From contig OZ020493.1 in assembly GCA_963971405.1 (NCBI GenBank), forward strand, positions 1,674,001 through 1,738,000: a stretch of 64,000 bases of DNA. The letters run 5' to 3'. The stretch comes from Psococerastis gibbosa (Eukaryota; Arthropoda; Insecta; Psocodea; Psocidae). A program made the position numbers and the translations under genes. Position 1 is the stretch's first letter; each line of letters begins with the position of its first letter. Of this stretch, positions 1 through 64,000 are shown piece after piece. The notes beneath the pieces are model-generated. The model saw nothing but the letters and a program-made list of their open reading frames with translations, was not told the DNA's origin and ran no database searches.

Positions 1-363
1 CCCCCTCCTCGAGCACTGTGCGACGTGGTTCATACTTCATGGTCATATATAAGGGATAACCAAGTTTTTATTTCCACGCTCGAATTAGTAAACAGTGAAA
101 TCATAAGGTACTCAAGTCTACAGTAGACTTATCTAATTCTTCAGCATGCAGGTGAAGTACTGGAAGTGCCGGACTAACCACTATCTTTTTTTTTCTAGCA
201 GTCGGGCTGTTTCAATTGACTAGTGGGTACAATGTTTGACTGATTATGCAAAAAATGTACATCAATTCCTACACACAGAGGGAATTTCAAACGTGAAGAC
301 AAACTCCAGTGAATTGCGGAAGACTTTCGAAAATCGGACAACTACATAAATATTTGTGTGTGA
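1..363 (+). repeat. Module B'' (3' part, cut by window start)
   Basis: The window opens inside the C tract of a B''-class copy. Diagnostic bases are CATACTTCATGG, ATATAAGGG, AACCAAG, ATTTCCACG, AAGGTAC, ATGCAAAAAATG and the exit sequence TTTGTGTGTGAG. Elsewhere in the window B'' always follows a short B', so a B' probably lies just upstream of the window. Confidence 0.9.
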
Positions 364-700
364 GTACTTTTGGACTCAGGGGCGTAATGTGTCCTTCCCT
401 CCCCCAGCCTCGGGCATTGTAAGACGTGGTGGTTCATACGCCATGGTCCCCTTTGCAGCATTATGAATAGTAGCCTTCCTAATAAGGAATATACATAAAA
501 GATTTAATACAGTTTGTGGGTGAGTACTTATGGACTCGGGGCGAACAGCTACACCTATGTATATAAATATATATGTGGGGAATAAGGAATATTTATAAGG
601 AAGGAATAACCCAGTTTTTATTTGCACACACCAATTAGTAAAGTGTAAACTCATGTCTGCAGTAGACAAATTTAAGATCTACATATATATTTGTGTGTGA
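364..700 (+). repeat. Module A, class A_a (reference copy)
   Basis: This is a 337 bp dimer. Subunit A1 runs from the anchor GTACTTTTGGACTC to the next anchor GTACTTATGGACTC 160 bp later; subunit A2 takes the remaining 177 bp. A1 and A2 share the anchor and a downstream AATAAGGAATAT block, showing that A arose from two related units. A_a is marked by GGGCATT, GCCATGG, CCTTCC, GTATATAAATA, GTGGGG, CACACACC and GACAAATTT. It is also the left end of a 4.7 kb block repeated from 12,128. A minus-strand frame of 97 codons (376-669) lies inside it and is judged non-coding. Confidence 0.93.
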
Positions 701-1037
701 GTACTTTTGGACTCAGGGGCGTAATGTGTCCTTCCCTCCCCCAGCCTCGAGCATTGTAAGACGTGGTGGTTCATACGTCATTTTCCCCTTTGCAGCATTA
801 TGAATAGTAGCATTTCTAATAAGGAATATACATAAAAGATTTAATACAGTTTGTGGGTGAGTACTTATGGACTCGGGGCGAACAGCTACACCTATGTTAA
901 TAAATATATATGTAGGGAATAAGGAATATTTATAAGGAAGGAATAACCCAGTTTTTATTTGCAGACTCGAATTAGTAAAGTGTAAACTCATGTCTGCAGT
1001 AGACATATTTAAGATCTACATAAATATTGGTGAGTGA
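701..1037 (+). repeat. Module A, class A_d (reference copy)
   Basis: This 337 bp dimer is marked by GAGCATT, GTCATTTT, CATTTCT, GTTAATAAAT, TAGGG, GCAGACTCG and ACATATTTAAG, and it ends in ATATTGGTGAGTGAG. A_d is the class placed directly before module B throughout the array. In place of the TATATAAA found in A_a and A_c it has GTTAATAAA, which removes the TATA-like string but contains AATAAA (899-904). A dyad-symmetric site lies at 990-1006. Confidence 0.93.
990..1006. other. Dyad-symmetric site in A2 (representative)
   Basis: ATGTCTGCAGTAGACAT is an inverted repeat: ATGTCT pairs with AGACAT around GCAGT, whose outer bases pair further by one G-T and one C-G. It recurs near the end of A2 in most A copies. 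In many A_a copies the right arm reads AGACAAAT, which weakens the symmetry. The site matches the dyad of B1 in position and core (CAGTAGAC). It could be a protein-binding site; that is a guess. Confidence 0.6.
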
Positions 1038-1078
1038 GTACTTATGGACTGAAGGGCGTAAAGTTTGGGAAGGCTTTG

Positions 1079-1088
1079 CCCCCCCCCC
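1079..1088 (+). repeat. Variable C tract of module B (representative)
   Basis: A run of C between GGCTTTG and TCCTCGAG varies from 10 to 17 in the copies I counted (10 here; 17 at 34,943-34,959). Its length modulo 3 decides whether a plus-strand frame stays open: 10, 13 and 16 give frames of 60, 61 and 62 codons. The G-rich strand could form a quadruplex in the longest tracts. Slippage, or sequencing error, explains the variation. Confidence 0.85.
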
Positions 1089-1196
1089 TCCTCGAGCACT
1101 GTGCGACGTGGTTCATATTTCATGGTCATATATATGGGATAAACAAGTTTTTATATCCTCGCTCGAATTAGTAAACAGTGAAATCATAACGTACTC

Positions 1197-1213
1197 AAGT
1201 CTACAGTAGACTT
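1197..1213. other. Perfect dyad in B1 (representative)
   Basis: AAGTCTACAGTAGACTT is a perfect 8-bp inverted repeat with a single central base. It is present in nearly all B, B' and B'' copies. The copy near 37,248 has one change (TCAACAG). No CENP-B-type consensus overlaps it. Confidence 0.7.
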
Positions 1214-1447
1214 ATCTAATTCTTCAGCATGCAGGTGAAGTACTGGAAGTGCCGGACTAACCACTATCTTTTTTTTTTCTAGCAGTCGGGCTGTTTCAAT
1301 TGACTAGTGGGTACAATGTTTGACTGATTATGAAAAAAATGTACAACAATTCCTACACACAGAGGGAATTTCAAACGTGAAGACAAACTCCAGTGAATTG
1401 CGGAAGACTTTCGAAAATCGGACAACTACATAAATATTTGTGGGTGA

Positions 1448-2195
1448 GTACTTTTGGACTCAGGGGCGTAATGTGTCCTTCCCTCCCCCAGCCTCGGGCA
1501 TTGTAAGACGTGGTGGTTCATACGCCATGGTCCCCTTTGCAGCATTATGAATAGTAGCATTCCTAATAAGGAATATACATAAAAGATTTAATACAGTTTG
1601 TGGGTGAGTACTTATGGACTCGGGGCGAACAGCTACACCTATGTTAATAAATATATATGTAGGGAATAAGGAATATTTATAAGGAAGGAATAACCCAGTT
1701 TTTATTTGCAGACTCGAATTAGTAAAGTGTAAACTCATGTCTGCAGTAGACATATTTAAGATCTACATAAATATTGGTGAGTGAGTACTTATGGACTGAA
1801 GGGCGTAAAGTTTGGGAAGGCTTTGCCCCCCCCCCCTCCTCGAGCACTGTGCGACGTGGTTCATATTTCATGGTCATATATATGGGATAAACAAGTTTTT
1901 ATATCCTCGCTCGAATTAGTAAACAGTGAAATCATAACGTACTCAAGTCTACAGTAGACTTATCTAATTCTTCAGCATGCAGGTGAAGTACTGGAAGTGC
2001 CGGACTAACCACTATCTTTTTTTTTTCTAGCAGTCGGGCTGTTTCAATTGACTAGTGGGTACAATGTTTGACTGATTATGAAAAAAATGTACAACAATTC
2101 CTACACACAGAGGGAATTTCAAACGTGAAGACAAACTCCAGTGAATTGCGGAAGACTTTCGAAAATCGGACAACTACATAAATATTTGTGGCTGA
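1448..2195 (+). repeat. Mosaic A + B
   Basis: The A copy (1448-1784) has a front half with GGGCATT, GCCATGG and CATTCC, as in A_c, but a back half with GTTAATAAAT, TAGGG and GCAGACTCG, as in A_d. The changeover lies between about 1580 and 1640. It suggests exchange between A_c and A_d, which collapsed an A_c-A_d pair into one module. An ordinary B (1785-2195) follows, leaving with a private TTGTGGCTGAG (c at 2192) that recurs at 13,957. Confidence 0.85.
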
Positions 2196-3541
2196 GTACT
2201 TTTGGACTCAGGGGCGTAATGTGTCCTTCCCTCCCCCAGCCTCGGGCATTGTAAGACGTGGTGGTTCATACGCCATGGTCCCCTTTGCAGCATTATGAAT
2301 AGTAGCATTCCTAATAAGGAATATACATAAAAGATTTAATACAGTTTGTGGGTGAGTACTTATGGACTCGGGGCGAACAGCTACACCTATGTTAATAAAT
2401 ATATATGTAGTGAATAAGGAATATTTATAAGGAAGGAATATCCCAGTTTTTATTTGCACACACCAATTAGTAAAGTGTAAACTCATGTCTGCAGTAGACA
2501 TACTTAAGATCTACATATATATTTGTGTGTGAGTACTTTTGGACTCAGGGGCGTAATGTGTCCTTCCCTCCCCCAGCCTCGTGCATTGTAAGACGTGGTG
2601 GTTCATACGTCATTTTCCCCTTTGCAGCATTTTGAATAGTAGCATTCCTAATAAGGAATATACATAAAAGATTTAATTCAGTATGCGGGTGGGTACTTAT
2701 GGACTCGGGGCGAACAGCTCACCTATATAAATAAATATATATGTAGTGAATAAGGAATATTTATAAGGAAAGAATATCCCAGTTTTTATTTGCACACACC
2801 AATTAGTAAAGTGTAAACTCATGTCTGCAGTAGACATACTTAAGATCTACATATATATTTGTGTGTGAGTACTTTTGGACTCAGGGGCGTAATGTGTCCT
2901 TCCCTCCCCCAGCCTCGAGCATTGTAAGACGTGGTGGTTCATACGCTATGGTCCCCTTTGCAGCATTATGAATAGTAGCCTTCCTAATAAGGAATATACA
3001 TAAAAGATTTAATACAGTTTGTGGGTGAGTACTTATGGACTCGGGGCGAACAGCTACACCTATGTATATAAATATATATGTGGGGAATAAGGAATATTTA
3101 TAAGGAAGGAATAACCCAGTTTTTATTTGCACACACCAATTAGTAAAGTGTAAACTCATGTCTGCAGTAGACATATTTAAGATCTACATATATATTTGTG
3201 TGTGAGTACTTTTGGACTCAGGGGCGTAATGTGTCCTTCCCTCCCCCAGCCTCGAGCATTGTAAGACGTGGTGGTTCATACGTCATTTTCCCCTTTGCAG
3301 CATTATGAATAGGAGCATTTCTAATAAGGAATATACATAAAAGATTTAATACAGTTTGTGGGTGAGTACTTATGGACTCGGGGCGAACAGCTACACCTAT
3401 GTTAATAAATATATATGTAGGGAATAAGGAATATTTATAAGGAAGGAATAACCCAGTTTTTATTTGCAGAACGAATTAGTAAAGTGTAAACTCATGTCTG
3501 CAGTAGACATATTTAAGATCTACATAAATATTGGTGAGTGA
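2196..3541 (+). repeat. Run of four A modules without B
   Basis: Four A copies start at 2196, 2533, 2869 and 3206. The first is a mosaic (A_d-like GTTAATAA with A_c-like TAGTG and CACACACC). The second is A_c with private GTGCATT and CATTTTGAAT. The third is A_a with private GCTATGG. The fourth is A_d with AGGAGC and a 2-bp deletion giving GCAGAACG. All these private variants recur 11,765 bp downstream. Confidence 0.88.
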
Positions 3542-3954
3542 GTACTTATGGACTGAAGGGCGTAAAGTTTGGGAAGGCTTTGCCCCCCCCCCCCCTCCTC
3601 GAGCACTGTGCGACGTGGTTCTTATTTCATGGTCATATATATGGGATAAACAAGTTTTTATATCCTCGCTCGAATTAGTAAACAGTGAAATCATAACGTA
3701 CTCAAGTCTACAGTAGACTTATCTAATTCTTCAGCATGCAGGTGAAGTACTGGAAGTGCCGGACTAACCACTATCTTTTTTTTTTCTAGCAGTCGGGCTG
3801 TTTCAATTGACTAGTGGGTACAATGTTTGACTGATTATGAAAAAAATGTACAACAATTCCTACACACAGAGGGAATTTCAAACGTGAAGACAAACTCCAG
3901 TGAATTGCGGAAGACTTTCGAAAATCGGACAACTACATAAATATTTGTGGGTGA
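3542..3954 (+). repeat. Module B with private variant TTCTTATTT
   Basis: This is an ordinary B whose GGTTCATATTTC reads GGTTCTTATTTC (t at 3622). The same change is found only in the copies at 15,387 and 40,278, so it tags one lineage of duplications. The C tract is 13 long. Confidence 0.88.
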
Positions 3955-5040
3955 GTACTTTTGGACTCAGGGGCGTAATGTGTCCTTCCCTCCCCCAGCC
4001 TCGGGCATTGTAAGACGTGGTGGTTCATACGCCATGGTCCCCTTTGCAGCATTATGAATAGTAGCATTCCTAATAAGGAATATACATAAAAGATTTAATT
4101 CAGTATGCGGGTGGGTACTTATGGACTCGGGGCGAACAGCTCACCTATATAAATAAATATATATGTAGTGAATAAGGAATATTTATAAGGAAGGAATATC
4201 CCAGTTTTTATTTGCACACACCAATTAGTAAAGTGTAAACTCATGTCTGCAGTAGACATACTTAAGATCTACATATATATTTGTGTGTGAGTACTTTTGG
4301 ACTCAGGGGCGTAATGTGTCCTTCCCTCCCCCAGCCTCGAGCATTGTAAGACGTGGTGGTTCATACGTCATTTTCCCCTTTGCAGCATTATGAATAGTAG
4401 CATTTCTAATAAGGAATATACATAAAAGATTTAATACAGTTTGTGGGTGAGTACTTATGGACTCGGGGCGAACAGCTACACCTATGTTAATAAATATATA
4501 TGTAGGGAATAAGGAATATTTATAAGGAAGGAATAACCCAGTTTTTATTTGCAGACTCGAATTAGTAAAGTGTAAACTCATGTCTGCAGTAGACATATTT
4601 AAGATCTACATAAATATTGGTGAGTGAGTACTTATGGACTGAAGGGCGTAAAGTTTGGGAAGGCTTTGCCCCCCCCCCCCCCTCCTCGAGCACTGTGCGA
4701 CGTGGTTCATATTTCATGGTCATATATATGGGATAAACAAGTTTTTATATCCTCGCTCGAATTAGTAAACAGTGAAATCATAACGTACTCAAGTCTACAG
4801 TAGACTTATCTAATTCTTCAGCATGCAGGTGAAGTACTGGAAGTGCCGGACTAACCACTATCTTTTTTTTTCTAGCAGTCGGGCTGTTTCAATTGACTAG
4901 TGGGTACAATGTTTGACTGATTATGAAAAAAATGTACAACAATTCCTACACACAGAGGGAATTTCAAACGTGAAGACAAACTCCAGTGAATTGCGGAAGA
5001 CTTTCGAAAATCGGACAACTACATAAATATTTGTGGGTGA
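3955..5040 (+). repeat. Half HOR: A_c-A_d-B
   Basis: A_c occupies 3955-4290, A_d 4291-4627 and B 4628-5040. This is the front half of the 2,170 bp HOR that dominates from 15.7 kb. It lies at the right-hand end of the block repeated at 15,720-16,802. Confidence 0.87.
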
Positions 5041-5714
5041 GTACTTTTGGACTCAGGGGCGTAATGTGTCCTTCCCTCCCCCAGCCTCGAGCATTGTAAG
5101 ACGTGGTGGTTCATACGCCATGGTCCCCTTTGCAGCATTATGAATAGTAGCATTCCTAATAAGGAATATACATAAAAGATTTAATACAGTTTGTGGGTGA
5201 GTACTTATGGACTCGGGGCGAACAGCTACACCTATGTATATAAATATATATGTGGGGAATAAGGAATATTTATAAGGAAGGAATAACCCAGTTTTTATTT
5301 GCAGACTCGAATTAGTAAAGTGTAAACTCATGTCTGCAGTAGACAAATTTAAGATCTACATATATATTTGTGTGTGAGTACTTTTGGACTCAGGGGCGTA
5401 ATGTGTCCTTCCCTCCCCCAGCCTCGAGCATTGTAAGACGTGGTGGTTCATACGTCATTTTCCCCTTTGCAGCATTATGAATAGTAGCATTCCTAATAAG
5501 GAATATACATAAAAGATTTAATACAGTTTGTGGGTGAGTACTTATGGACTCGGGGCGAACAGCTACACCTATGTTAATAAATATATATGTAGGGAATAAG
5601 GAATATTTATAAGGAAGGAATAACCCAGTTTTTATTTGTAGACTCGAATTAGTAAAGTGTAAACTCATGTCTGCAGTAGACATATTTAAGATCTACATAA
5701 ATATTGGTGAGTGA
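5041..5714 (+). repeat. Mosaic A pair
   Basis: The first A (5041-5377) follows a B yet carries GAGCATT; GGGCATT is otherwise usual after an ordinary B. It is A_a-like (GTATATAA, GTGGGG, GACAAATTT) but has GCAGACTCG of A_d. The second (5378-5714) is A_d with CATTCC and GTAGACTCG. The mismatch with the usual grammar marks the right-hand breakpoint of the 4.7 kb duplication near 5,050. Confidence 0.82.
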
Positions 5715-6322
5715 GTACTTATGGACTGAAGGGCGTAAAGTTTGGGAAGGCTTTGCCCCCCCCCCCCTCCTCGAGCACTGTGCGACGTGGTTCATATTTC
5801 ATGGTCATATATATGGGATAAACAAGTTTTTATATCCTCGCTCGAATTAGTAAACAGTGAAATCATAACGTACTCAAGTCTACAGTAGACTTATCTAATT
5901 CTTCAGCATGCAGGTGAAATGGACTGAAGGGCGTACAGTTTGGGACGGCTTTGCCCCCCCCCCCTCCTCGAGCACTGTGCGACGTGGTTCATACTTCATG
6001 GTCATATATAAGGGATAACCAAGTTTTTATTTCCACGCTCGAATTAGTAAACAGTGAAATCATAAGGTACTCAAGTCTACAGTAGACTTATCTAATTCTT
6101 CAGCATGCAGGTGAAGTACTGGAAGTGCCGGACTAACCACTATCTTTTTTTTTCTAGCAGTCGGGCTGTTTCAATTGACTAGTGGGTACAATGTTTGACT
6201 GATTATGCAAAAAATGTACATCAATTCCTACACACAGAGGGAATTTCAAACGTGAAGACAAACTCCAGTGAATTGCGGAAGACTTTCGAAAATCGGACAA
6301 CTACATAAATATTTGTGTGTGA
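5715..6322 (+). repeat. Composite B'-B''
   Basis: A B1-only unit (B', about 5715-5912) is fused to a full B''. The junction reads GCAGGTGAAATGGACTG at about 5911-5926; the normal B would continue GCAGGTGAAGTACTGG into B2. The B'' that follows has GCGTACAG and GGGACGGC, not GCGTAAAG and GGGAAGGC. The same junction occurs ten times in the window. This copy has GCACTGTGCG after its C tract. Confidence 0.9.
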
Positions 6323-11453: not shown

Positions 11454-12801
11454 GTACTTTTGGACTCAGGGGCGTAATGTGTCCTTCCCTCCCCCAGCCT
11501 CGGGCATTGTAAGACGTGGTGGTTCATACGCCATGGTCCCCTTTGCAGCATTATGAATAGTAGCCTTCCTAATAAGGAATATACATAAAAGATTTAATAC
11601 AGTTTGTGGGTGAGTACTTATGGACTCGGGGCGAACAGCTACACCTATGTATATAAATATATATGTGGGGAATAAGGAATATTTATAAGGAAGGAATAAC
11701 CCAGTTTTTATTTGCACACACCAAATAGTAAAGTGTAAACTCATGTCTGCAGTAGACAAATTTAAGATCTACATATATATTTGTGTGTGAGTACTTTTGG
11801 ACTCAGGGGCGTAATGTGTCCTTCCCTCCCCCAGCCTCGAGCATTGTAAGACGTGGTGGTTCATACGCCATGGTCCCCTTTGCAGCATTATGAATAGTAG
11901 CATTTCTAATAAGGAATATACATAAAAGATTTAATACAGTTTGTGGGTGAGTACTTATGGAATCGGGGCGAACAGCTACACCTATGTATATAAATATATA
12001 TGTAGTGAATAAGGAATATTTATAAGGAAGGAATATCCCAGTTTTTATTTGCACACACCAATTAGTAAAGTGTAAACTCATGTCTGCAGTAGACATACTT
12101 AAGATCTACATATATATTTGTGTGTGAGTACTTTTGGACTCAGGGGCGTAATGTGTCCTTCCCTCCCCCAGCCTCGGGCATTGTAAGACGTGGTGGTTCA
12201 TACGCCATGGTCCCCTTTGCAGCATTATGAATAGTAGCCTTCCTAATAAGGAATATACATAAAAGATTTAATACAGTTTGTGGGTGAGTACTTATGGACT
12301 CGGGGCGAACAGCTACACCTATGTATATAAATATATATGTGGGGAATAAGGAATATTTATAAGGAAGGAATAACCCAGTTTTTATTTGCACACACCAATT
12401 AGTAAAGTGTAAACTCATGTCTGCAGTAGACAAATTTAAGATCTACATATATATTTGTGTGTGAGTACTTTTGGACTCAGGGGCGTAATGTGTCCTTCCC
12501 TCCCCCAGCCTCGAGCATTGTAAGACGTGGTGGTTCATACGTCATTTTCCCCTTTGCAGCATTATGAATAGTAGCATTTCTAATAAGGAATATACATAAA
12601 AGATTTAATACAGTTTGTGGGTGAGTACTTATGGACTCGGGGCGAACAGCTACACCTATGTTAATAAATATATATGTAGGGAATAAGGAATATTTATAAG
12701 GAAGGAATAACCCAGTTTTTATTTGCAGACTCGAATTAGTAAAGTGTAAACTCATGTCTGCAGTAGACATATTTAAGATCTACATAAATATTGGTGAGTG
12801 A
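11454..12801 (+). repeat. Run of four A modules
   Basis: Copies start at 11454, 11791, 12128 and 12465: A_a (with CACCAAATAG), a mosaic (GCCATGG, CATTTCT, GTATATAA, TAGTG, private GGAATCGG), A_a and A_d. The third is the only A that follows another A yet has GGGCATT. This fits the left edge of the duplicated block, which begins here and matches 364 onward. Confidence 0.88.
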
Positions 12802-33620: not shown

Positions 33621-34227
33621 GTACTTATGGACTGAAGGGCGTAAAGTTTGGGAAGGCTTTGCCCCCCCCCCTCCTCGAGCACTGTGCGACGTGGTTCATA
33701 TTTCATGGTCATATATATGGGATAAACAAGTTTTTATATCCTCGCTCGAATTAGTAAACAGTGAAATCATAACGTACTCAAGTCTACAGTAGACTTATCT
33801 AATTCTTCAGCATGCAGGTGAAATGGACTGAAGGGCGTACAGTTTGGGACGGCTTTGCCCCCCCCCCCCTCCTCGAGCACTGTGCGACGTGGTTCATACT
33901 TCATGGTCATATATAAGGGATAACCAAGTTTTTATTTCCACGCTCGAATTAGTAAACAGTGAAATCATAAGGTACTCAAGTCTACAGTAGACTTATCTAA
34001 TTCTTCAGCATGCAGGTGAAGTACTGGAAGTGCCGGACTAACCACTATCTTTTTTTTTCTAGCAGTCGGGCTGTTTCAATTGACTAGTGGGTACAATGTT
34101 TGACTGATTATGCAAAAAATGTACATCAATTCCTACACACAGAGGGAATTTCAAACGTGAAGACAAACTCCAGTGAATTGCGGAAGACTTTCGAAAATCG
34201 GACAACTACATAAATATTTGTGTGTGA
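33621..34227 (+). repeat. Composite B'-B''
   Basis: Junction at about 33,818; C10 in B'. Unlike the composite at 30.5 kb, B'' has GCACTGTGCG, as at 59,685 and in the last two composites of the window. Confidence 0.9.
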
Positions 34228-49239: not shown

Positions 49240-49912
49240 GTACTTTTGGACTCAGGGGCGTAATGTGTCCTTCCCTCCCCCAGCCTCGGGCATTGTAAGA
49301 CGTGGTGGTTCATACGCCATGGTCCCCTTTGCAGCATTATGAATAGTAGCATTCCTAATAAGGAATATACATAAAAGATTTAATTCAGTATGCGGGTGGG
49401 TACTTATGGACTCGGGGCGAACAGCTCACCTATATAAATAAATATATATGTAGTGAATAAGGAATATTTATAAGGAAGGAATATCCCAGTTTTTATTTGC
49501 ACACACCAATTAGTAAAGTGTAAACTCATGTCTGCAGTAGACATACTTAAGATCTACATATATATTTGTGTGTGAGTACTTTTGGACTCAGGGGCGTAAT
49601 GTGTCCTTCCCTCCCCCAGCCTCGAGCATTGTAAGACGTGGTGGTTCATACGTCATTTTCCCCTTTGCAGTATTATGAATAGTAGCATTTCAAATAAGGA
49701 ATATACATAAAAGATTTAATACAGTTTGTGGGTGAGTACTTATGGACTCGGGGCGAACAGCTACACCTATGTTAATAAATATATATGTAGGGAATAAGGA
49801 ATATTTATAAGGAAGGAATAACCCAGTTTTTATTTGCAGACTCGAATTAGTAAAGTGTAAACTCATGTCTGCAGTAGACATATTTAAGATCTACATAAAT
49901 ATTGGTGAGTGA
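49240..49912 (+). repeat. A_c-A_d pair, A_d with CATTTCAAATAAG
   Basis: The A_d carries the lineage mark at 49,692 and a private GCAGTATTATG near 49,669. It replaces the ordinary A_d expected from the alignment with HOR copy 4, so the switch to the other lineage lies within or just before this pair. Confidence 0.9.
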
Positions 49913-50519
49913 GTACTTATGGACTGAAGGGCGTAAAGTTTGGGAAGGCTTTGCCCCCCCCCCCTCCTCGAGCACTGTGCGACGTGGTTCATATTTCATG
50001 GTCATATATATGGGATAAACAAGTTTTTATATCCTCGCTCGAATTAGTAAACAGTGAAATCATAACGTACTCAAGTCTACAGTAGACTTATCTAATTCTT
50101 CAGCATGCAGGTGAAATGGACTGAAGGGCGTACAGTTTGGGACGGCTTTGCCCCCCCCCCCTCCTCGAGCACTGAGCGACGTGGTTCATACTTCATGGTC
50201 ATATATAAGGGATAACCAAGTTTTTATTTCCACGCTCGAATTAGTAAACAGTGAAATCATAAGGTACTCAAGTCTACAGTAGACTTATCTAATTCTTCAG
50301 CATGCAGGTGAAGTACTGGAAGTGCCGGACTAACCACTATCTTTTTTTTTCTAGCAGTCGGGCTGTTTCAATTGACTAGTGGGTACAATGTTTGACTGAT
50401 TATGCAAAAAATGTACATCAATTCCTACACACAGAGGGAATTTCAAACGTGAAGACAAACTCCAGTGAATTGCGGAAGACTTTCGAAAATCGGACAACTA
50501 CATAAATATTTGTGTGTGA
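49913..50519 (+). repeat. Composite B'-B''
   Basis: Junction at about 50,111; GCACTGAGCG in B''. Unlike the composites at 30.5, 38.2 and 56.6 kb it is followed by A_c, not by the GCCATGG/A_d mosaic. A crossover downstream of the composite is implied. Confidence 0.9.
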
Positions 50520-52689
50520 GTACTTTTGGACTCAGGGGCGTAATGTGTCCTTCCCTCCCCCAGCCTCGAGCATTGTAAGACGTGGTGGTTCATACGCCAT
50601 GGTCCCCTTTGCAGCATTATGAATAGTAGCATTCCTAATAAGGAATATACATAAAAGATTTAATTCAGTATGCGGGTGGGTACTTATGGACTCGGGGCGA
50701 ACAGCTCACCTATATAAATAAATATATATGTAGTGAATAAGGAATATTTATAAGGAAGGAATATCCCAGTTTTTATTTGCACACACCAATTAGTAAAGTG
50801 TAAACTCATGTCTGCAGTAGACATACTTAAGATCTACATATATATTTGTGTGTGAGTACTTTTGGACTCAGGGGCGTAATGTGTCCTTCCCTCCCCCAGC
50901 CTCGAGCATTGTAAGACGTGGTGGTTCATACGTCATTTTCCCCTTTGCAGCATTATGAATAGTAGCATTTCTAATAAGGAATATACATAAAAGATTTAAT
51001 ACAGTTTGTGGGTGAGTACTTATGGACTCGGGGCGAACAGCTACACCTATGTTAATAAATATATATGTAGGGAATAAGGAATATTTATAAGGAAGGAATA
51101 ACCCAGTTTTTATTTGCAGACTCGAATTAGTAAAGTGTAAACTCATGTCTGCAGTAGACATATTTAAGATCTACATAAATATTGGTGAGTGAGTACTTAT
51201 GGACTGAAGGGCGTAAAGTTTGGGAAGGCTTTGCCCCCCCCCCCCCTCCTCGAGCACTGTGCGACGTGGTTCATATTTCATGGTCATATATATGGGATAA
51301 ACAAGTTTTTATATCCTCGCTCGAATTAGTAAACAGTGAAATCATAACGTACTCAAGTCTACAGTAGACTTATCTAATTCTTCAGCATGCAGGTGAAGTA
51401 CTGGAAGTGCCGGACTAACCACTATCTTTTTTTTTCTAGCAGTCGGGCTGTTTCAATTGACTAGTGGGTACAATGTTTGACTGATTATGAAAAAAATGTA
51501 CAACAATTCCTACACACAGAGGGAATTTCAAACGTGAAGACAAACTCCAGTGAATTGCGGAAGACTTTCGAAAATCGGACAACTACATAAATATTTGTGG
51601 GTGAGTACTTTTGGACTCAGGGGCGTAATGTGTCCTTCCCTCCCCCAGCCTCGGGCATTGTAAGACGTGGTGGTTCATACGCCATGGTCCCCTTTGCAGC
51701 ATTATGAATAGTAGCCTTCCTAATAAGGAATATACATAAAAGATTTAATACAGTTTGTGGGTGAGTACTTATGGACTCGGGGCGAACAGCTACACCTATG
51801 TATATAAATATATATGTGGGGAATAAGGAATATTTATAAGGAAGGAATAACCCAGTTTTTATTTGCACACACCAATTAGTAAAGTGTAAACTCATGTCTG
51901 CAGTAGACAAATTTAAGATCTACATATATATTTGTGTGTGAGTACTTTTGGACTCAGGGGCGTAATGTGTCCTTCCCTCCCCCAGCCTCGAGCATTGTAA
52001 GACGTGGTGGTTCATACGTCATTTTCCCCTTTGCAGCATTATGAATAGTAGCATTTCTAATAAGGAATATACATAAAAGATTTAATACAGTTTGTGGGTG
52101 AGTACTTATGGACTCGGGGCGAACAGCTACACCTATGTTAATAAATATATATGTAGGGAATAAGGAATATTTATAAGGAAGGAATAACCCAGTTTTTATT
52201 TGCAGACTCGAATTAGTAAAGTGTAAACTCATGTCTGCAGTAGACATATTTCAGATCTACATAAATATTGGTGAGTGAGTACTTATGGACTGAAGGGCGT
52301 AAAGTTTGGGAAGGCTTTGCCCCCCCCCCCTCCTCGAGCACTGTGCGACGTGGTTCATATTTCATGGTCATATATATGGGATAAACAAGTTTTTATATCC
52401 TCGCTCGAATTAGTAAACAGTGAAATCATAACGTACTCAAGTCTACAGTAGACTTATCTAATTCTTCAGCATGCAGGTGAAGTACTGGAAGTGCCGGACT
52501 AACCACTATCTTTTTTTTTTCTAGCAGTCGGGCTGTTTCAATTGACTAGTGGGTACAATGTTTGACTGATTATGAAAAAAATGTACAACAATTCCTACAC
52601 ACAGAGGGAATTTCAAACGTGAAGACAAACTCCAGTGAATTGCGGAAGACTTTCGAAAATCGGACAACTACATAAATATTTGTGGGTGA
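50520..52689 (+). repeat. HOR copy 11
   Basis: A_c, A_d, B, A_a, A_d, B; 2,170 bp. The first A_c has GAGCATT because it follows B''. It matches HOR copy 9 at an offset of about 5,571 bp. The last A_d has ATATTTCAG near 52,250, which copy 9 lacks. Confidence 0.92.
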
Positions 52690-54813
52690 GTACTTTTGGA
52701 CTCAGGGGCGTAATGTGTCCTTCCCTCCCCCAGCCTCGGGCATTGTAAGACGTGGTGGTTCATACGCCATGGTCCCCTTTGCAGCATTATGAATAGTAGC
52801 ATTCCTAATAAGGAATATACATAAAAGATTTAATTCAGTATGCGGGTGGGTACTTATGGACTCGGGGCGAACAGCTCACCTATATAAATAAATATATATG
52901 TAGTGAATAAGGAATATTTATAAGGAAGGAATATCCCAGTTTTTATTTGCACTTTACTTTGGACTATTTGCACTAGTACTTTTGGACTCAGGGGCGTAAT
53001 GTGTCCTTCCCTCCCCCAGCCTCGAGCATTGTAAGACGTGGTGGTTCATACGTCATTTTCCCCTTTGCAGCATTATGAATAGTAGCATTTCTAATAAGGA
53101 ATATACATAAAAGATTTAATACAGTTTGTGGGTGAGTACTTATGGACTCGGGGCGAACAGCTACACCTATGTTAATAAATATATATGTAGGGAATAAGGA
53201 ATATTTATAAGGAAGGAATAACCCAGTTTTTATTTGCAGACTCGAATTAGTAAAGTGTAAACTCATGTCTGCAGTAGACATATTTAAGATCTACATAAAT
53301 ATTGGTGAGTGAGTACTTATGGACTGAAGGGCGTAAAGTTTGGGAAGGCTTTGCCCCCCCCCCCCCTCCTCGAGCACTGTGCGACGTGGTTCATATTTCA
53401 TGGTCATATATATGGGATAAACAAGTTTTTATATCCTCGCTCGAATTAGTAAACAGTGAAATCATAACGTACTCAAGTCTACAGTAGACTTATCTAATTC
53501 TTCAGCATGCAGGTGAAGTACTGGAAGTGCCGGACTAACCACTATCTTTTTTTTTCTAGCAGTCGGGCTGTTTCAATTGACTAGTGGGTACAATGTTTGA
53601 CTGATTATGAAAAAAATGTACAACAATTCCTACACACAGAGGGAATTTCAAACGTGAAGACAAACTCCAGTGAATTGCGGAAGACTTTCGAAAATCGGAC
53701 AACTACATAAATATTTGTGGGTGAGTACTTTTGGACTCAGGGGCGTAATGTGTCCTTCCCTCCCCCAGCCTCGGGCATTGTAAGACGTGGTGGTTCATAC
53801 GCCATGGTCCCCTTTGCAGCATTATGAATAGTAGCCTTCCTAATAAGGAATATACATAAAAGATTTAATACAGTTTGTGGGTGAGTACTTATGGACTCGG
53901 GGCGAACAGCTACACCTATGTATATAAATATATATGTGGGGAATAAGGAATATTTATAAGGAAGGAATAACCCAGTTTTTATTTGCACACACCAATTAGT
54001 AAAGTGTAAACTCATGTCTGCAGTAGACAAATTTAAGATCTACATATATATTTGTGTGTGAGTACTTTTGGACTCAGGGGCGTAATGTGTCCTTCCCTCC
54101 CCCAGCCTCGAGCATTGTAAGACGTGGTGGTTCATACGTCATTTTCCCCTTTGCAGCATTATGAATAGTAGCATTTCTAATAAGGAATATACATAAAAGA
54201 TTTAATACAGTTTGTGGGTGAGTACTTATGGACTCGGGGCGAACAGCTACACCTATGTTAATAAATATATATGTAGGGAATAAGGAATATTTATAAGGAA
54301 GGAATAACCCAGTTTTTATTTGCAGACTCGAATTAGTAAAGTGTAAACTCATGTCTGCAGTAGACATATTTAAGATCTACATAAATATTGGTGAGTGAGT
54401 ACTTATGGACTGAAGGGCGTAAAGTTTGGGAAGGCTTTGCCCCCCCCCCCCCCCTCCTCGAGCACTGTGCGACGTGGTTCATATTTCATGGTCATATTTA
54501 TGGGATAAACAAGTTTTTATATCCTCGCTCGAATTAGTAAACAGTGAAATCATAACGTACTCAAGTCTACAGTAGACTTATCTAATTCTTCAGCATGCAG
54601 GTGAAGTACTGGAAGTGCCGGACTAACCACTATCTTTTTTTTTTCTAGCAGTCGGGCTGTTTCAATTGACTAGTGGGTACAATGTTTGACTGATTATGAA
54701 AAAAATGTACAACAATTCCTACACACAGAGGGAATTTCAAACGTGAAGACAAACTCCAGTGAATTGCGGAAGACTTTCGAAAATCGGACAACTACATAAA
54801 TATTTGTGGGTGA
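52690..54813 (+). repeat. HOR copy 12, with the same filler deletion
   Basis: A_c, A_d, B, A_a, A_d, B; 2,124 bp. The filler and breakpoints in A_c are identical to those of HOR copy 10, so the two share one event and were separated by a duplication with offset 5,571 bp. The A_a lacks the AATACATTTTG mark of copy 10. The second B has a C15 tract and ATATTTATGGG. Confidence 0.92.
52953..52974 (+). other. Filler DNA at a deletion in A_c (second copy)
   Basis: Identical in sequence and position within the module to the filler at 47,382-47,403. An independent event with the same filler is very unlikely; this is a copy. Confidence 0.85.
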
Positions 54814-55898
54814 GTACTTTTGGACTCAGGGGCGTAATGTGTCCTTCCCTCCCCCAGCCTCGGGCATTGTAAGACGTGGTGGTTCATACGCCATGGTCCC
54901 CTTTGCAGCATTATGAATAGTAGCATTCCTAATAAGGAATATACATAAAAGATTTAATTCAGTATGCGGGTGGGTACTTATGGACTCGGGGCGAACAGCT
55001 CACCTATATAAATAAATATATATGTAGTGAATAAGGAATATTTATAAGGAAGGAATATCCCAGTTTTTATTTGCACACACCAATTAGTAAAGTGTAAACT
55101 CATGTCTGCAGTAGACATACTTAAGATCTACATATATATTTGTGTGTGAGTACTTTTGGACTCAGGGGCGTAATGTGTCCTTCCCTCCCCCAGCCTCGAG
55201 CATTGTAAGACGTGGTGGTTCATACGTCATTTTCCCCTTTGCAGCATTATGAATAGTAGCATTTCTAATAAGGAATATACATAAAAGATTTAATACAGTT
55301 TGTGGGTGAGTACTTATGGACTCGGGGCGAACAGCTACACCTATGTTAATAAATATATATGTAGGGAATAAGGAATATTTATAAGGAAGGAATAACCCAG
55401 TTTTTATTTGCAGACTCGAATTAGTAAAGTGTAAACTCATGTCTGCAGTAGACATATTTAAGATCTACATAAATATTGGTGAGTGAGTACTTATGGACTG
55501 AAGGGCGTAAAGTTTGGGAAGGCTTTGCCCCCCCCCCCCTCCTCGAGCACTGTGCGACGTGGTTCATATTTCATGGTCATATTTATGGGATAAACAAGTT
55601 TTTATATCCTCGCTCGAATTAGTAAACAGTGAAATCATAACGTACTCAAGTCTACAGTAGACTTATCTAATTCTTCAGCATGCAGGTGAAGTACTGGAAG
55701 TGCCGGACTAACCACTATCTTTTTTTTTTCTAGCAGTCGGGCTGTTTCAATTGACTAGTGGGTACAATGTTTGACTGATTATGAAAAAAATGTACAACAA
55801 TTCCTACACACAGAGGGAATTTCAAACGTGAAGACAAACTCCAGTGAATTGCGGAAGACTTTCGAAAATCGGACAACTACATAAATATTTGTGGGTGA
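54814..55898 (+). repeat. Half HOR: A_c-A_d-B
   Basis: Same half unit as 28,745-29,828, including ATATTTATGGG in the B near 55,580, at an offset of about 26,069 bp. Confidence 0.9.
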
Positions 55899-56571
55899 GT
55901 ACTTTTGGACTCAGGGGCGTAATGTGTCCTTCCCTCCCCCAGCCTCGGGCATTGTAAGACGTGGTGGTTCATACGCCATGGTCCCCTTTGCAGCATTATG
56001 AATAGTAGCATTCCTAATAAGGAATATACATAAAAGATTTAATTCAGTATGCGGGTGGGTACTTATGGACTCGGGGCGAACAGCTCACCTATATAAATAA
56101 ATATATATGTAGTGAATAAGGAATATTTATAAGGAAGGAATATCCCAGTTTTTATTTGCACACACCAATTAGTAAAGTGTAAACTCATGTCTGCAGTAGA
56201 CATACTTAAGATCTACATATATATTTGTGTGTGAGTACTTTTGGACTCAGGGGCGTAATGTGTCCTTCCCTCCCCCAGCCTCGAGCATTGTAAGACGTGG
56301 TGGTTCATACGTCATTTTCCCCTTTGCAGCATTATGAATAGTAGCATTTCAAATAAGGAATATACATAAAAGATTTAATACAGTTTGTGGGTGAGTACTT
56401 ATGGACTCGGGGCGAACAGCTACACCTATGTTAATAAATATATATGTAGGGAATAAGGAATATTTATAAGGAAGGAATAACCCAGTTTTTATTTGCAGAC
56501 TCGAATTAGTAAAGTGTAAACTCATGTCTGCAGTAGACATATTTAAGATCTACATAAATATTGGTGAGTGA
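55899..56571 (+). repeat. A_c-A_d pair, A_d with CATTTCAAATAAG
   Basis: The lineage mark is at 56,351. The pair matches 29,829-30,501 at an offset of 26,070 bp. Confidence 0.9.
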
Positions 56572-57179
56572 GTACTTATGGACTGAAGGGCGTAAAGTTT
56601 GGGAAGGCTTTGCCCCCCCCCCCTCCTCGAGCACTGTGCGACGTGGTTCATATTTCATGGTCATATATATGGGATAAACAAGTTTTTATATCCTCGCTCG
56701 AATTAGTAAACAGTGAAATCATAACGTACTCAAGTCTACAGTAGACTTATCTAATTCTTCAGCATGCAGGTGAAATGGACTGAAGGGCGTACAGTTTGGG
56801 ACGGCTTTGCCCCCCCCCCCCTCCTCGAGCACTGAGCGACGTGGTTCATACTTCATGGTCATATATAAGGGATAACCAAGTTTTTATTTCCACGCTCGAA
56901 TTAGTAAACAGTGAAATCATAAGGTACTCAAGTCTACAGTAGACTTATCTAATTCTTCAGCATGCAGGTGAAGTACTGGAAGTGCCGGACTAACCACTAT
57001 CTTTTTTTTTCTAGCAGTCGGGCTGTTTCAATTGACTAGTGGGTACAATGTTTGACTGATTATGCAAAAAATGTACATCAATTCCTACACACAGAGGGAA
57101 TTTCAAACGTGAAGACAAACTCCAGTGAATTGCGGAAGACTTTCGAAAATCGGACAACTACATAAATATTTGTGTGTGA
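56572..57179 (+). repeat. Composite B'-B''
   Basis: Junction at about 56,771-56,783; GCACTGAGCG in B''. Counterpart of 30,502-31,111. Confidence 0.9.
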
Positions 57180-57927
57180 GTACTTTTGGACTCAGGGGCG
57201 TAATGTGTCCTTCCCTCCCCCAGCCTCGAGCATTGTAAGACGTGGTGGTTCATACGCCATGGTCCCCTTTGCAGCATTATGAATAGTAGCATTTCTAATA
57301 AGGAATATACATAAAAGATTTAATACAGTTTGTGGGTGAGTACTTATGGACTCGGGGCGAACAGCTACACCTATGTTAATAAATATATATGTAGGGAATA
57401 AGGAATATTTATAAGGAAGGAATAACCCAGTTTTTATTTGCAGACTCGAATTAGTAAAGTGTAAACTCATGTCTGCAGTAGACATATTTAAGATCTACAT
57501 AAATATTGGTGAGTGAGTACTTATGGACTGAAGGGCGTAAAGTTTGGGAAGGCTTTGCCCCCCCCCCCCTCCTCGAGCACTGTGCGACGTGGTTCATATT
57601 TCATGGTCATATATATGGGATAAACAAGTTTTTATATCCTCGCTCGAATTAGTAAACAGTGAAATCATAACGTACTCAAGTCTACAGTAGACTTATCTAA
57701 TTCTTCAGCATGCAGGTGAAGTACTGGAAGTGCCGGACTAACCACTATCTTTTTTTTTCTAGCAGTCGGGCTGTTTCAATTGACTAGTGGGTACAATGTT
57801 TGACTGATTATGAAAAAAATGTACAACAATTCCTACACACAGAGGGAATTTCAAACGTGAAGACAAACTCCAGTGAATTGCGGAAGACTTTCGAAAATCG
57901 GACAACTACATAAATATTTGTGGGTGA
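57180..57927 (+). repeat. Mosaic A + B
   Basis: Same mosaic (GCCATGG, CATTTCT, A_d back half) as at 31,112, followed by an ordinary B. The B lacks the extra a seen in its 31 kb counterpart. Confidence 0.88.
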
Positions 57928-59684
57928 GTACTTTTGGACTCAGGGGCGTAATGTGTCCTTCCCTCCCCCAGCCTCGGGCATTGTAAGACGTGGTGGTTCA
58001 TACGCCATGGTCCCCTTTGCAGCATTATGAATAGTAGCCTTCCTAATAAGGAATATACATAAAAGATTTAATTCAGTATGCGGGTGGGTACTTATGGACT
58101 CGGGGCGAACAGCTCACCTATATAAATAAGTATATATGTAGTGAATAAGGAATATTTATAAGGAAGGAATATCCCAGTTTTTATTTGCACACACCAATTA
58201 GTAAAGTGTAAACTCATGTCTGCAGTAGACATACTTAAGATCTACATATATATTTGTGTGTGAGTACTTTTGGACTCAGGGGCGTAATGTGTCCTTCCCT
58301 CCCCCAGCCTCGAGCATTGTAAGACGTGGTGGTTCATACGTCATTTTCCCCTTTGCAGCATTATGAATAGTAGCATTTCTAATAAGGAATATACATAAAA
58401 GATTTAATACAGTTTGTGGGTGAGTACTTATGGACTCGGGGCGAACAGCTACACCTATGTTAATAAATATATATGTAGGGAATAAGGAATATTTATAAGG
58501 AAGGAATAACCCAGTTTTTATTTGCAGACTCGAATTAGTAAAGTGTAAACTCATGTCTGCAGTAGACATATTTAAGATCTACATAAATATTGGTGAGTGA
58601 GTACTTATGGACTGAAGGGCGTAAAGTTTGGGAAGGCTTTGCCCCCCCCCCCTCCTCGAGCACTGTGCGACGTGGTTCATATTTCATGGTCATATATATG
58701 GGATAAACAAGTTTTTATATCCTCGCTCGAATTAGTAAACAGTGAAATCATAACGTACTCAAGTCTACAGTAGACTTATCTAATTCTTCAGCATGCAGGT
58801 GAAGTACTGGAAGTGCCGGACTAACCACTATCTTTTTTTTTTCTAGCAGTCGGGCTGTTTCAATTGACTAGTGGGTACAATGTTTGACTGATTATGAAAA
58901 AAATGTACAACAATTCCTACACACAGAGGGAATTTCAAACGTGAAGACAAACTCCAGTGAATTGCGGAAGACTTTCGAAAATCGGACAACTACATAAATA
59001 TTTGTGGGTGAGTACTTTTGGACTCAGGGGCGTAATGTGTCCTTCCCTCCCCCAGCCTCGGGCATTGTAAGACGTGGTGGTTCATACGCCATGGTCCCCT
59101 TTGCAGCATTATGAATAGTAGCATTCCTAATAAGGAATATACATAAAAGATTTAATTCAGTATGCGGGTGGGTACTTATGGACTCGGGGCGAACAGCTCA
59201 CCTATATAAATAAATATATATGTAGTGAATAAGGAATATTTATAAGGAAGGAATATCCCAGTTTTTATTTGCACACACCAATTAGTAAAGTGTAAACTCA
59301 TGTCTGCAGTAGACATACTTAAGATCTACATATATATTTGTGTGTGAGTACTTTTGGACTCAGGGGCGTAATGTGTCCTTCCCTCCCCCAGCCTCGAGCA
59401 TTGTAAGACGTGGTGGTTCATACGTCATTTTCCCCTTTGCAGCATTATGAATAGTAGCATTTCTAATAAGGAATATACATAAAAGATTTAATACAGTTTG
59501 TGGGTGAGCACTTATGGACTCGGGGCGAACAGCTACACCTATGTTAATAAATATATATGTAGGGAATAAGGAATATTTATAAGGAAGGAATAACCCAGTT
59601 TTTATTTGCAGACTCGAATTAGTAAAGTGTAAACTCATGTCTGCAGTAGACATATTTAAGATCTACATAAATATTGGTGAGTGA
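57928..59684 (+). repeat. A_c-A_d-B-A_c-A_d
   Basis: Counterpart of 31,864-33,620 at an offset of 26,064 bp. Private changes are ATAAGTATATATG near 58,130 and GTGAGCACTTATGG near 59,510; the second alters one anchor. Confidence 0.9.
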
Positions 59685-60293
59685 GTACTTATGGACTGAA
59701 GGGCGTAAAGTTTGGGAAGGCTTTGCCCCCCCCCCTCCTCGAGCACTGTGCGACGTGGTTCATATTTCATGGTCATATATATGGGATAAACAAGTTTTTA
59801 TATCCTCGCTCGAATTAGTAAACAGTGAAATCATAACGTACTCAAGTCTACAGTAGACTTATCTAATTCTTCAGCATGCAGGTGAAATGGACTGAAGGGC
59901 GTACAGTTTGGGACGGCTTTGCCCCCCCCCCCCCCTCCTCGAGCACTGTGCGACGTGGTTCATACTTCATGGTCATATATAAGGGATAACCAAGTTTTTA
60001 TTTCCACGCTCGAATTAGTAAACAGTGAAATCATAAGGTACTCAAGTCTACAGTAGACTTATCTAATTCTTCAGCATGCAGGTGAAGTACTGGAAGTGCC
60101 GGACTAACCACTATCTTTTTTTTTCTAGCAGTCGGGCTGTTTCAATTGACTAGTGGGTACAATGTTTGACTGATTATGCAAAAAATGTACATCAATTCCT
60201 ACACACAGAGGGAATTTCAAACGTGAAGACAAACTCCAGTGAATTGCGGAAGACTTTCGAAAATCGGACAACTACATAAATATTTGTGTGTGA
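59685..60293 (+). repeat. Composite B'-B''
   Basis: Counterpart of 33,621-34,227, with GCACTGTGCG. Junction at about 59,881-59,893. Confidence 0.9.
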
Positions 60294-60967
60294 GTACTTT
60301 TGGACTCAGGGGCGTAATGTGTCCTTCCCTCCCCCAGCCTCGAGCATTGTAAGACGTGGTGGTTCATACGCCATGGTCCCCTTTGCAGCATTATGAATAG
60401 TAGTATTTCTAATAAGGAATATACATAAAAGATTTAATACAGTTTGTGGGTGAGTACTTATGGACTCGGGGCGAACAGCTACACCTATGTTAATAAATAT
60501 ATATGTAGTGAATAAGGAATATTTATAAGGAAGGAATATCCCAGTTTTTATTTGCACACACCAATTAGTAAAGTGTAAACTCATGTCTGCAGTAGACATA
60601 CTTAAGATCTACATATATATTTGTGTGTGAGTACTTTTGGACTCAGGGGCGTAATGTGTCCTTCCCTCCCCCAGCCTCGAGCATTGTAAGACGTGGTGGT
60701 TCATACGTCATTTTCCCCTTTGCAGCATTATGAATAGTAGCATTTCTAATAAGGAATATACATAAAAGATTTAATACAGTTTGTGGGTGAGTACTTATGG
60801 ACTCGGGGCGAACAGCTACACCTATGTTAATAAATATATATGTAGGGAATAAGGAATATTTATAAGGAAGGAATAACCCAGTTTTTATTTGCAGACTCGA
60901 ATTAGTAAAGTGTAAACTCATGTCTGCAGTAGACATATTTAAGATCTACATAAATATTGGTGAGTGA
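60294..60967 (+). repeat. Mosaic A (TAGTATTTC) and A_d
   Basis: Counterpart of 34,228-34,901. After this pair the two regions part: 34.9 kb continues with the hybrid B of the 1,090 bp duplication, whereas 60,968 continues with a hybrid B'. The right end of the 8 kb duplication is therefore close to 60.97 kb. Confidence 0.9.
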
Positions 60968-61577
60968 GTACTTATGGACTGAAGGGCGTAAAGTTTGGGA
61001 AGGCTTTGCCCCCCCCCCCCTCCTCGAGCACTGTGCGACGTGGTTCATATTTCATGGTCATATATATGGGATAACCAAGTTTTTATTTCCACGCTCGAAT
61101 TAGTAAACAGTGAAATCATAAGGTACTCAAGTCTACAGTAGACTTATCTAATTCTTCAGCATGCAGGTGAAATGGACTGAAGGGCGTACAGTTTGGGACG
61201 GCTTTGCCCCCCCCCCCCCTCCTCGAGCACTGTGCGACGTGGTTCATACTTCATGGTCATATATAAGGGATAACCAAGTTTTTATTTCCACGCTCGAATT
61301 AGTAAACAGTGAAATCATAAGGTACTCAAGTCTACAGTAGACTTATCTAATTCTTCAGCATGCAGGTGAAGTACTGGAAGTGCCGGACTAACCACTATCT
61401 TTTTTTTTCTAGCAGTCGGGCTGTTTCAATTGACTAGTGGGTACAATGTTTGACTGATTATGCAAAAAATGTACATCAATTCCTACACACAGAGGGAATT
61501 TCAAACGTGAAGACAAACTCCAGTGAATTGCGGAAGACTTTCGAAAATCGGACAACTACATAAATATTTGTGTGTGA
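60968..61577 (+). repeat. Composite hybrid B'-B''
   Basis: This B' starts as ordinary B (CATATTTCATGG, ATATATGGG) and switches to B'' marks (AACCAAG, ATTTCCACG, AAGGTAC) at about 61,063-61,075. It then runs through the usual junction near 61,171 into a full B''. The switch shows exchange or conversion between B and B''. Confidence 0.9.
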
Positions 61578-62924
61578 GTACTTTTGGACTCAGGGGCGTA
61601 ATGTGTCCTTCCCTCCCCCAGCCTCGAGCATTGTAAGACGTGGTGGTTCATACGCCATGGTCCCCTTTGCAGCATTATGAATAGTAGCATTCCTAATAAG
61701 GAATATACATAAAAGATTTAATACAGTTTGTGGGTGAGTACTTATGGACTCGGGGCGAACAGCTACACCTATGTATATAAATATATATGTGGGGAATAAG
61801 GAATATTTATAAGGAAGGAATAACCCAGTTTTTATTTGCACACACCAATTAGTAAAGTGTAAACTCATGTCTGCAGTAGACAAATTTAAGATCTACATAT
61901 ATATTTGTGTGTGAGTACTTTTGGACTCAGGGGCGTAATGTGTCCTTCCCTCCCCCAGCCTCGAGCATTGTAAGACGTGGTGGTTCATACGTCATTTTCC
62001 CCTTTGCAGCATTATGAATAGTAGCATTCCTAATAAGCAATATACATAAAAGATTTAATACAGTTTGTGGGTGAGTACTTATGGACTCGGGGCGAACAGC
62101 TCACCTATATAAATAAATATATATGTAGTGAATAAGGAATATTTATAAGGAAGGAATATCCCAGTTTTTATTTGCACACACCAATTAGTAAAGTGTAAAC
62201 TCATGTCTGCAGTAGACATACTTAAGATCTACATATATATTTGTGTGTGAGTACTTTTGGACTCAGGGGCGTAATGTGTCCTTCCCTCCCCCAGCCTCGA
62301 GCATTGTAAGACGTGGTGGTTCATACGCCATGGTCCCCTTTGCAGCATTATGAATAGTAGCATTCCTAATAAGGAATATACATAAAAGATTTAATACAGT
62401 TTGTGGGTGAGTACTTATGGACTCGGGGCGAACAGCTACACCTATGTATATAAATATATATGTGGGGAATAAGGAATATTTATAAGGAAGGAATAACCCA
62501 GTTTTTATTTGCACACACCAATTAGTAAAGTGTAAACTCATGTCTGCAGTAGACAAATTTAAGATCTACATATATATTTGTGTGTGAGTACTTTTGGACT
62601 CAGGGGCGTAATGTGTCCTTCCCTCCCCCAGCCTCGAGCATTGTAAGACGTGGTGGTTCATACGTCATTTTCCCCTTTGCAGCATTATGAATAGTAGCAT
62701 TTCTAATAAGGAATATACATAAAAGATTTAATACAGTTTGTGGGTGAGTACTTATGGACTCGGGGCGAACAGCTACACCTATGTTAATAAATATATATGT
62801 AGGGAATAAGGAATATTTATAAGGAAGGAATAACCCAGTTTTTATTTGCAGACTCGAATTAGTAAAGTGTAAACTCATGTCTGCAGTAGACATATTTAAG
62901 ATCTACATAAATATTGGTGAGTGA
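61578..62924 (+). repeat. Run of four A modules
   Basis: Copies start at 61,578 (A_a with GAGCATT and CATTCC), 61,915 (an A_c-like mosaic with ATACAG and GCTCACC, and private AATAAGCAA near 62,031), 62,251 (A_a) and 62,588 (A_d). The first two are repeated from 63,538. Confidence 0.9.
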
Positions 62925-63537
62925 GTACTTATGGACTGAAGGGCGTAAAGTTTGGGAAGGCTTTGCCCCCCCCCCCCCTCCTCGAGCACTGTGCGACGTG
63001 GTTCATATTTCATGGTCATATATATGGGATAACCAAGTTTTTATTTCCACGCTCGAATTAGTAAACAGTGAAATCATAAGGTACTCAAGTCTACAGTAGA
63101 CTTATCTAATTCTTCAGCATGCAGGTGAAATGGACTGAAGGGCGTACAGTTTGGGACGGCTTTGCCCCCCCCCCCCCCCTCCTCGAGCACTGTGCGACGT
63201 GGTTCATACTTCATGGTCATATATAAGGGATAACCAAGTTTTTATTTCCACGCTCGAATTAGTAAACAGTGAAATCATAAGGTACTCAAGTCTACAGTAG
63301 ACTTATCTAATTCTTCAGCATGCAGGTGAAGTACTGGAAGTGCCGGACTAACCACTATCTTTTTTTTTCTAGCAGTCGGGCTGTTTCAATTGACTAGTGG
63401 GTACAATGTTTGACTGATTATGCAAAAAATGTACATCAATTCCTACACACAGAGGGAATTTCAAACGTGAAGACAAACTCCAGTGAATTGCGGAAGACTT
63501 TCGAAAATCGGACAACTACATAAATATTTGTGTGTGA
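62925..63537 (+). repeat. Composite hybrid B'-B''
   Basis: Same B-to-B'' switch as in the composite at 60,968, with the junction near 63,125; C15 in B''. With the preceding four A modules it forms a unit of 1,960 bp that starts again at 63,538. Confidence 0.9.
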
Positions 63538-64000
63538 GTACTTTTGGACTCAGGGGCGTAATGTGTCCTTCCCTCCCCCAGCCTCGAGCATTGTAAGACG
63601 TGGTGGTTCATACGCCATGGTCCCCTTTGCAGCATTATGAATAGTAGCATTCCTAATAAGGAATATACATAAAAGATTTAATACAGTTTGTGGGTGAGTA
63701 CTTATGGACTCGGGGCGAACAGCTACACCTATGTATATAAATATATATGTGGGGAATAAGGAATATTTATAAGGAAGGAATAACCCAGTTTTTATTTGCA
63801 CACACCAATTAGTAAAGTGTAAACTCATGTCTGCAGTAGACAAATTTAAGATCTACATATATATTTGTGTGTGAGTACTTTTGGACTCAGGGGCGTAATG
63901 TGTCCTTCCCTCCCCCAGCCTCGAGCATTGTAAGACGTGGTGGTTCATACGTCATTTTCCCCTTTGCAGCATTATGAATAGTAGCATTCCTAATAAGCAA
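63538..64000 (+). repeat. A_a and start of A_c-like mosaic (cut by window end)
   Basis: A_a (63,538-63,874) and the first 126 bp of the next A. The last bases carry AATAAGCAA, as at about 62,031, so a tandem repeat of the 1,960 bp unit continues beyond the window. Confidence 0.9.

Follow-up and report, generated by a model that had tools for sequence, protein, structure and literature searches.

Two questions are raised by the locus described here: how a satellite array comes to be organised on several nested levels, and what such an array signifies on a scaffold labelled Y in an insect whose males are reported to be X(0). The window analysed is a stretch of 64,000 bp from the barkfly Psococerastis gibbosa, corresponding to C21:1674001-1738000, where C21 is a 12,031,718-bp scaffold labelled Y in iuPsoGibb1.1, the assembly of one male individual; positions given without a scaffold name refer to the window. 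The stretches of C21 that were read are 1543001-1553000, 1560001-1798000 (238 kb, containing no N) and 1897001-1901000. Our analysis suggests that the window is part of one noncoding array of ~351 kb on the Y-labelled scaffold, which has grown stepwise by exchange and duplication, and we put the probability of this reading at roughly 0.7. The window itself is a higher-order repeat (HOR) satellite, as it consists of head-to-tail tandem repeats in which distinct modules form near-identical units and follow a fixed order beyond chance. The initial annotation, made from the sequence of the window, proposed a clear nesting on four levels, from subunit and module to HOR and multi-kilobase duplication; the nested HOR satellite is there, but the subunits are less clear than claimed, and the canonical HOR occupies less of the window than that description implies. 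In our view, the single locus on a Y-labelled scaffold of a species reported as X(0) matters more than the nesting.

Self-comparison of the window yielded match peaks at 337 bp (0.435), 1,085 bp (0.412) and 2,170 bp (0.391), and also at 748 bp, over a median of 0.26, in agreement with the periods of 337, 1,084 and 2,170 bp that had been predicted. The window resolves into 169 complete modules lying head to tail in a single orientation (342..63852, plus strand), bordered by partial modules at 1-341 and 63853-64000. These comprise 113 A modules of 336 or 337 bp, 44 B modules of 409-416 bp, ten C modules of ~608 bp and two junction modules of 623 bp, and the two basic modules of 337 and 410 bp named by the initial annotation are thereby recovered. 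Examples, all on the plus strand, are the 337-bp A module at 342..678, the 410-bp B module at 1016..1425, which joins an A-like head of ~205 bp to a tail of ~203 bp without a match elsewhere in the array, and the 608-bp C module at 5693..6300, a B with a doubled head. The lengths of 167 of the 169 complete modules are regular, which is what exchange in register predicts. In the 238 kb, 625 modules were called. Of these, 425 are A (335-338 bp), 127 are B (409-416 bp) and 43 are C (606-613 bp); the other 30 have lengths of 241, 330, 402, 491, 565-569, 623 or 771 bp, apart from a single 2,856-bp module with a transposon in it. The mean column identity to the consensus in this stretch is 97.3% for A (n=422), 99.1% for B (n=127) and 98.7% for C (n=43). 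Reverse-strand matches to the module start motif most likely reflect an inverted stretch inside A instead of inverted modules.

The level below the modules, for which subunits of 160-208 bp had been proposed, is less distinct. In favour of subunits, core motifs recur at alternating distances of ~157-160 and 177-181 bp; at its left edge, the array also retains an isolated 185-bp unit that resembles the second half of A (156/198). However, the two halves of A have in common only a 32-bp stretch (29/32; score 47, against a shuffle mean of 16.6 and maximum of 24). The 5' parts of B and A are similar (86/117; score 83, shuffle maximum 28), as are the 3' part of the B head and the second half of A, in a comparison made without shuffle control, whereas for the final ~203 bp of B no match to A or to the B head was found (scores of 16 and 16, inside the shuffle range). 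In our reading, A consists of two joined subunits, and B combines an A-like unit with an unrelated segment; we infer the order in which this happened.

Above the modules, clustering of the 425 A copies yielded three main variants, a (147 copies), b (99) and c (97), besides minor groups. Relative to a, b has 12 differing positions and c has 20, with a mean of 2.8-4.4 differences within variants. The proposed 2,170-bp unit of six modules is genuine and has the order baBcaB. It occurs in seven tandem copies at 14612..29806, adjacent copies being 99.8% alike, and in three further, phase-shifted tandem copies at 39840..46348 (both plus strand). Forty positions of the window stand in six-module tandem order, while 1,000 module shuffles never exceeded 5 and 1,000 block shuffles never exceeded 25 (mean 4.2). 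These runs, however, account for only 34% of the window; the remainder consists of caC, aB, daB, dcbaB and other blocks, so that baBcaB is one arrangement among several. Of the 54 B or C modules in the window, 52 are preceded by an a and the remaining two by 623-bp modules. In the right part of the array, outside the window (C21:1782135-1897420), a private B-tail variant has 74 exact matches with a spacing motif near 1280/1083/750/2880 bp. A longer HOR in that part was considered and dropped, since at separations of 9-24 kb the best pair count was 9, against a maximum of 11 in 300 shuffles of the spacings.

The fourth level, copies of multi-kilobase blocks, was borne out. Pairs were sought inside the window as gapless matches of at least 2,300 bases, extended from the 900 longest seeds after long homopolymers had been squashed, and those listed are 99.2% to 99.9% identical over stretches of 2.3-12.5 kb, at separations of 1.1 to 49.6 kb. 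The longest (12,489 bases, 99.81%) is an HOR run matched to itself shifted by one unit. Others link separate places on the plus strand, such as 350..5918 with 12114..17680 (99.80%, 11,764 bp apart, 5,524 squashed bases) and 26910..35110 with 52975..61171 (99.90%, 26,065 bp apart, 8,113 squashed bases). At 44835..55690 (plus strand), a 5,571-bp block is present in two adjacent copies (44835-50115 and 50406-55690; 99.83% over 5,237 squashed bases). They hold the two 623-bp junction modules, each an out-of-register joint of two A modules, at 47097..47719 and, 5,571 bp further, at 52668..53290 (plus strand), and the identical scar in both indicates that the block as a whole was copied.

The array reaches far past the window: it begins at about C21:1548513, immediately following an A-rich run, ends at about 1900019 and keeps one orientation throughout. 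Its edges differ from its interior: the B tails of the left and right edge are 87.1% identical to each other (176/202), but only 78.2% and 77.7% identical to the core consensus, while core B tails agree with a mean of 98.6% over 400 random pairs. This likeness of the edge tails, together with their distance from the core, fits turnover inside the array with relics at its ends. The motif searches of the 409-Mb assembly allowed up to three mismatches. The edge-type tail was present at both edges, and the five other matches were core-type copies with three mismatches. A B-tail tag had 280 forward and 0 reverse matches and a core motif 598 forward and 0 reverse, and the first places listed for both were all on C21. 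As 190 and 452 of them, respectively, fall in the stretches read, the leftover matches correspond to the content expected of the unread 106 kb at equal density, and the counts thus fit one array. As far as these motif searches reach, the satellite is confined in the assembly to the Y-labelled scaffold. A dispersed transposon family finds no support within this range, as none of three motifs had a reverse-strand match with up to three mismatches in the assembly.

A transposon was encountered within the array, outside the window. At C21:1771600-1774123, a piggyBac-like DNA element with TTAA at both ends and the termini CCCATT/AATGGG lies inside an A module and carries an uninterrupted frame of 634 amino acids (Pfam DDE_Tnp_1_7, E 1.2e-74). 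It is the sole such insert found in the 238 kb and thus seems younger than the last copying there. The impression, from a reading frame, that the end of a reverse transcriptase of a long interspersed nuclear element (LINE) lies beside the left edge was not upheld, Pfam giving no match above its cut-off.

Taken together, these data make it probable that the array arose in the following way. Diverged subunits of ~160-200 bp would have been joined to form A, and an A-like unit combined with an unrelated segment of ~203 bp to form B. The trimer A-A-B (1,084 bp) may then have been amplified, and its variants baB and caB could have been fused into the 2,170-bp HOR, after which stretches of 2-12 kb would have been copied from place to place in the array, through unequal exchange, conversion or template switching. 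Exchange would nearly always have kept the register of the modules; rare events out of register would have left scars that were copied in turn. Turnover would have acted mainly within the array, so that old, diverged units persisted at its two ends. The sequence of events, the type of exchange and the lack of a function are our interpretation of the present arrangement. Several observations weigh against parts of it. Copies of variant a do not differ more with distance (2.48 differences within 1.5 kb, 2.33 beyond 100 kb), while those of b and c rise modestly; with a trend this flat, a purely local exchange model is unsupported, and unequal exchange is indistinguishable from long-range conversion. 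Further, ~106 kb of the array are known from motif positions alone. Finally, variation in the B tails is about half that in the B heads (0.0081 versus 0.0157, 127 copies), which could hint at constraint.

A rival reading regards the array as a functional segregation element, a site that would recruit the kinetochore or mediate pairing and so maintain an unpaired Y or B chromosome. We consider this unlikely. Besides the low variation of the B tail, the single array on one scaffold speaks for it, as does the holocentric plant Chionographis, in which satellite arrays act as centromere units (PMC10264360). However, the chromosomes of P. gibbosa are described as holokinetic in a cytogenetic study (PMC6910881), and the motifs were not seen on other scaffolds. 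Likewise, a search for the CENP-B box motif found no match, neither in the window nor in the 238 kb around it. Less probable still is a reading of the array as a family of noncoding RNAs or genes on a Y-like chromosome, transcribed and present in many copies. What suggests it is a minus-strand open frame of 100 amino acids in many A modules (the first 12 kb contain 17). Yet the variants in this frame, 18 synonymous, 61 non-synonymous and 5 stop among 310 copies, fit random change (expected fractions 0.23/0.73/0.04), and the module lengths of 336 and 337 bp break the frame from module to module. The frame thus behaves as neutral, and a coding array was dismissed. No Rfam family matched the window at gathering scores, nor the first 5 kb up to E=1, and a tRNA search had no match; the idea of a known RNA family or a tRNA array was dropped.

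A different objection is that the block structure is partly an assembly error, near-identical HOR copies having been collapsed, expanded or misjoined. Block identities of up to 99.9% would invite such errors, and for the whole assembly its report gives 358 gaps and 91 hand-corrected joins (PMC12559846). Against this, the 238 kb contain no N, private differences distinguish the copies and the two runs differ in their number of HORs (7 versus 3). Moreover, from the 22.19 Gb and 2.36 million HiFi reads given in the same report, the mean read is ~9.4 kb, so that the module and 2.17-kb levels fit into single reads. We regard assembly error as rather improbable, though slightly less so than a segregation element, and retain stepwise growth of a noncoding array by exchange and duplication as the preferred explanation.

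The setting of this array is the more puzzling part. The assembly report names the 12.03-Mb scaffold Y, and gives a total of 409.21 Mb, a mitochondrion of 17.08 kb, a GC content of 34% for the Y scaffold and lengths of 52.57, 49.17, 46.55, 34.83 and 12.03 Mb for chromosomes 2, 4, 6, 7 and Y (PMC12559846), which correspond to C2, C12, C14, C15 and C21; the GC content of the window is 39.4%. This label conflicts with the published cytology of the species. Males of P. gibbosa were confirmed as 2n = 16 + X(0), with holokinetic chromosomes, in a study using fluorescence in situ hybridization (FISH) (PMC6910881). According to a review, X(0) holds for all bark lice studied except two neo-XY Amphipsocidae, and B chromosomes of psyllids are said to segregate regularly relative to the X (PMC8490342). 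In Loensia variegata, of the same family, a male was assembled and no Y was reported (PMC13219991). The assembly of P. gibbosa contains eight autosomes and an X, matching the prediction from the karyotype, and the Y would thus be an extra element rather than the product of an autosome fusion.

A contaminant scaffold is unlikely. The left flank of the array holds a dispersed element of ~410 bp, of which further copies, 85-95% identical, lie both on C21 itself and on other scaffolds (40 of 8,834 candidates scored), and as this element is shared, C21 appears to belong to this genome. Only one of the 134 kinase matches listed lies on C21, with two in-frame stops, where ~3.9 would be expected by length (123 of 587 candidates scored); this may hint at a gene-poor scaffold. 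The extra element might possibly be a B chromosome, a B-derived Y or an overlooked Y. More specifically, we tentatively propose, at somewhat less than even odds, that C21 is a B chromosome, or was one before its recruitment as a Y, in an otherwise X(0) species, and that the array is private to a chromosome without a partner. In that case, the nested HORs would have formed without exchange between homologs, and the array would be a direct probe for an origin of the Y from a B in barklice. If the element is indeed partnerless, exchange would have taken place between sister chromatids or within one chromatid, and the array shows how far HOR formation can proceed without a homolog. The satellite is thus also a candidate marker, by FISH or polymerase chain reaction (PCR), for whether the scaffold is a Y, a B or something else. 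What distinguishes the locus is this combination: an array assembled at a single place in the genome of a holokinetic insect, and a scaffold that the 16 + X(0) male karyotype cannot accommodate.

Some observations concern the mitochondrial sequence. The mitochondrial contig contains a tandem repeat of ~36 bp (C68:7720-8119), visible as a recurring 12-residue motif in three frames; 36-bp repeats are also described for the control region of Psococerastis albimaculata (PMC3632521). A search with mitochondrial cox1 gave 43 matches including the mitochondrion itself, many of them nuclear, with no C21 copy among the matches listed. One nuclear copy, nearly complete and split in two pieces, lies at C14:11085363-11086704.

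Our survey of the open-access literature on barklouse satellites, this species, and HORs in insects, holocentrics and B or Y chromosomes found no account of this satellite family among the entries listed (20 of 395 for barklouse satellites). HOR satellites as such are of an already known kind, and judged by Rfam and this literature the present family is a new, further member in an interesting place. Comparable are the HOR arrays that alpha satellite forms in primates, among them DYZ3 on the human Y, in which diverged monomers are combined in a tandem multi-monomer unit with near-identical copies and diverged edges. The barkfly array is similar in that diverged modules are locked in a tandem unit, copies are near-identical and old units lie at the edges. 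It is dissimilar in that no CENP-B box was found, the chromosomes are holokinetic, the modules A and B are unequal and B contains an unrelated segment. Another comparison is the Chio satellite of Chionographis japonica, also arranged in arrays in a holocentric genome, one cluster having HORs; it forms, however, many megabase arrays of 23- and 28-bp monomers in mixed orientation, associated with CENH3 (PMC10264360), whereas the barkfly satellite is one array in one orientation. Satellites mapped by FISH to the Y-type chromosome only are described for the neo-Y of the cricket Eneoptera surinamensis, where there are many families (PMC5527012), in contrast to the one array of the barkfly, on a scaffold whose status as Y conflicts with cytology. 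Finally, the low-copy satellites of Tribolium castaneum likewise combine length variants into HORs in an insect; these are dimers of variants of ~63-83 bp (PMC10218199), whereas in the barkfly six modules are combined in 2,170 bp and copied further in multi-kilobase blocks.

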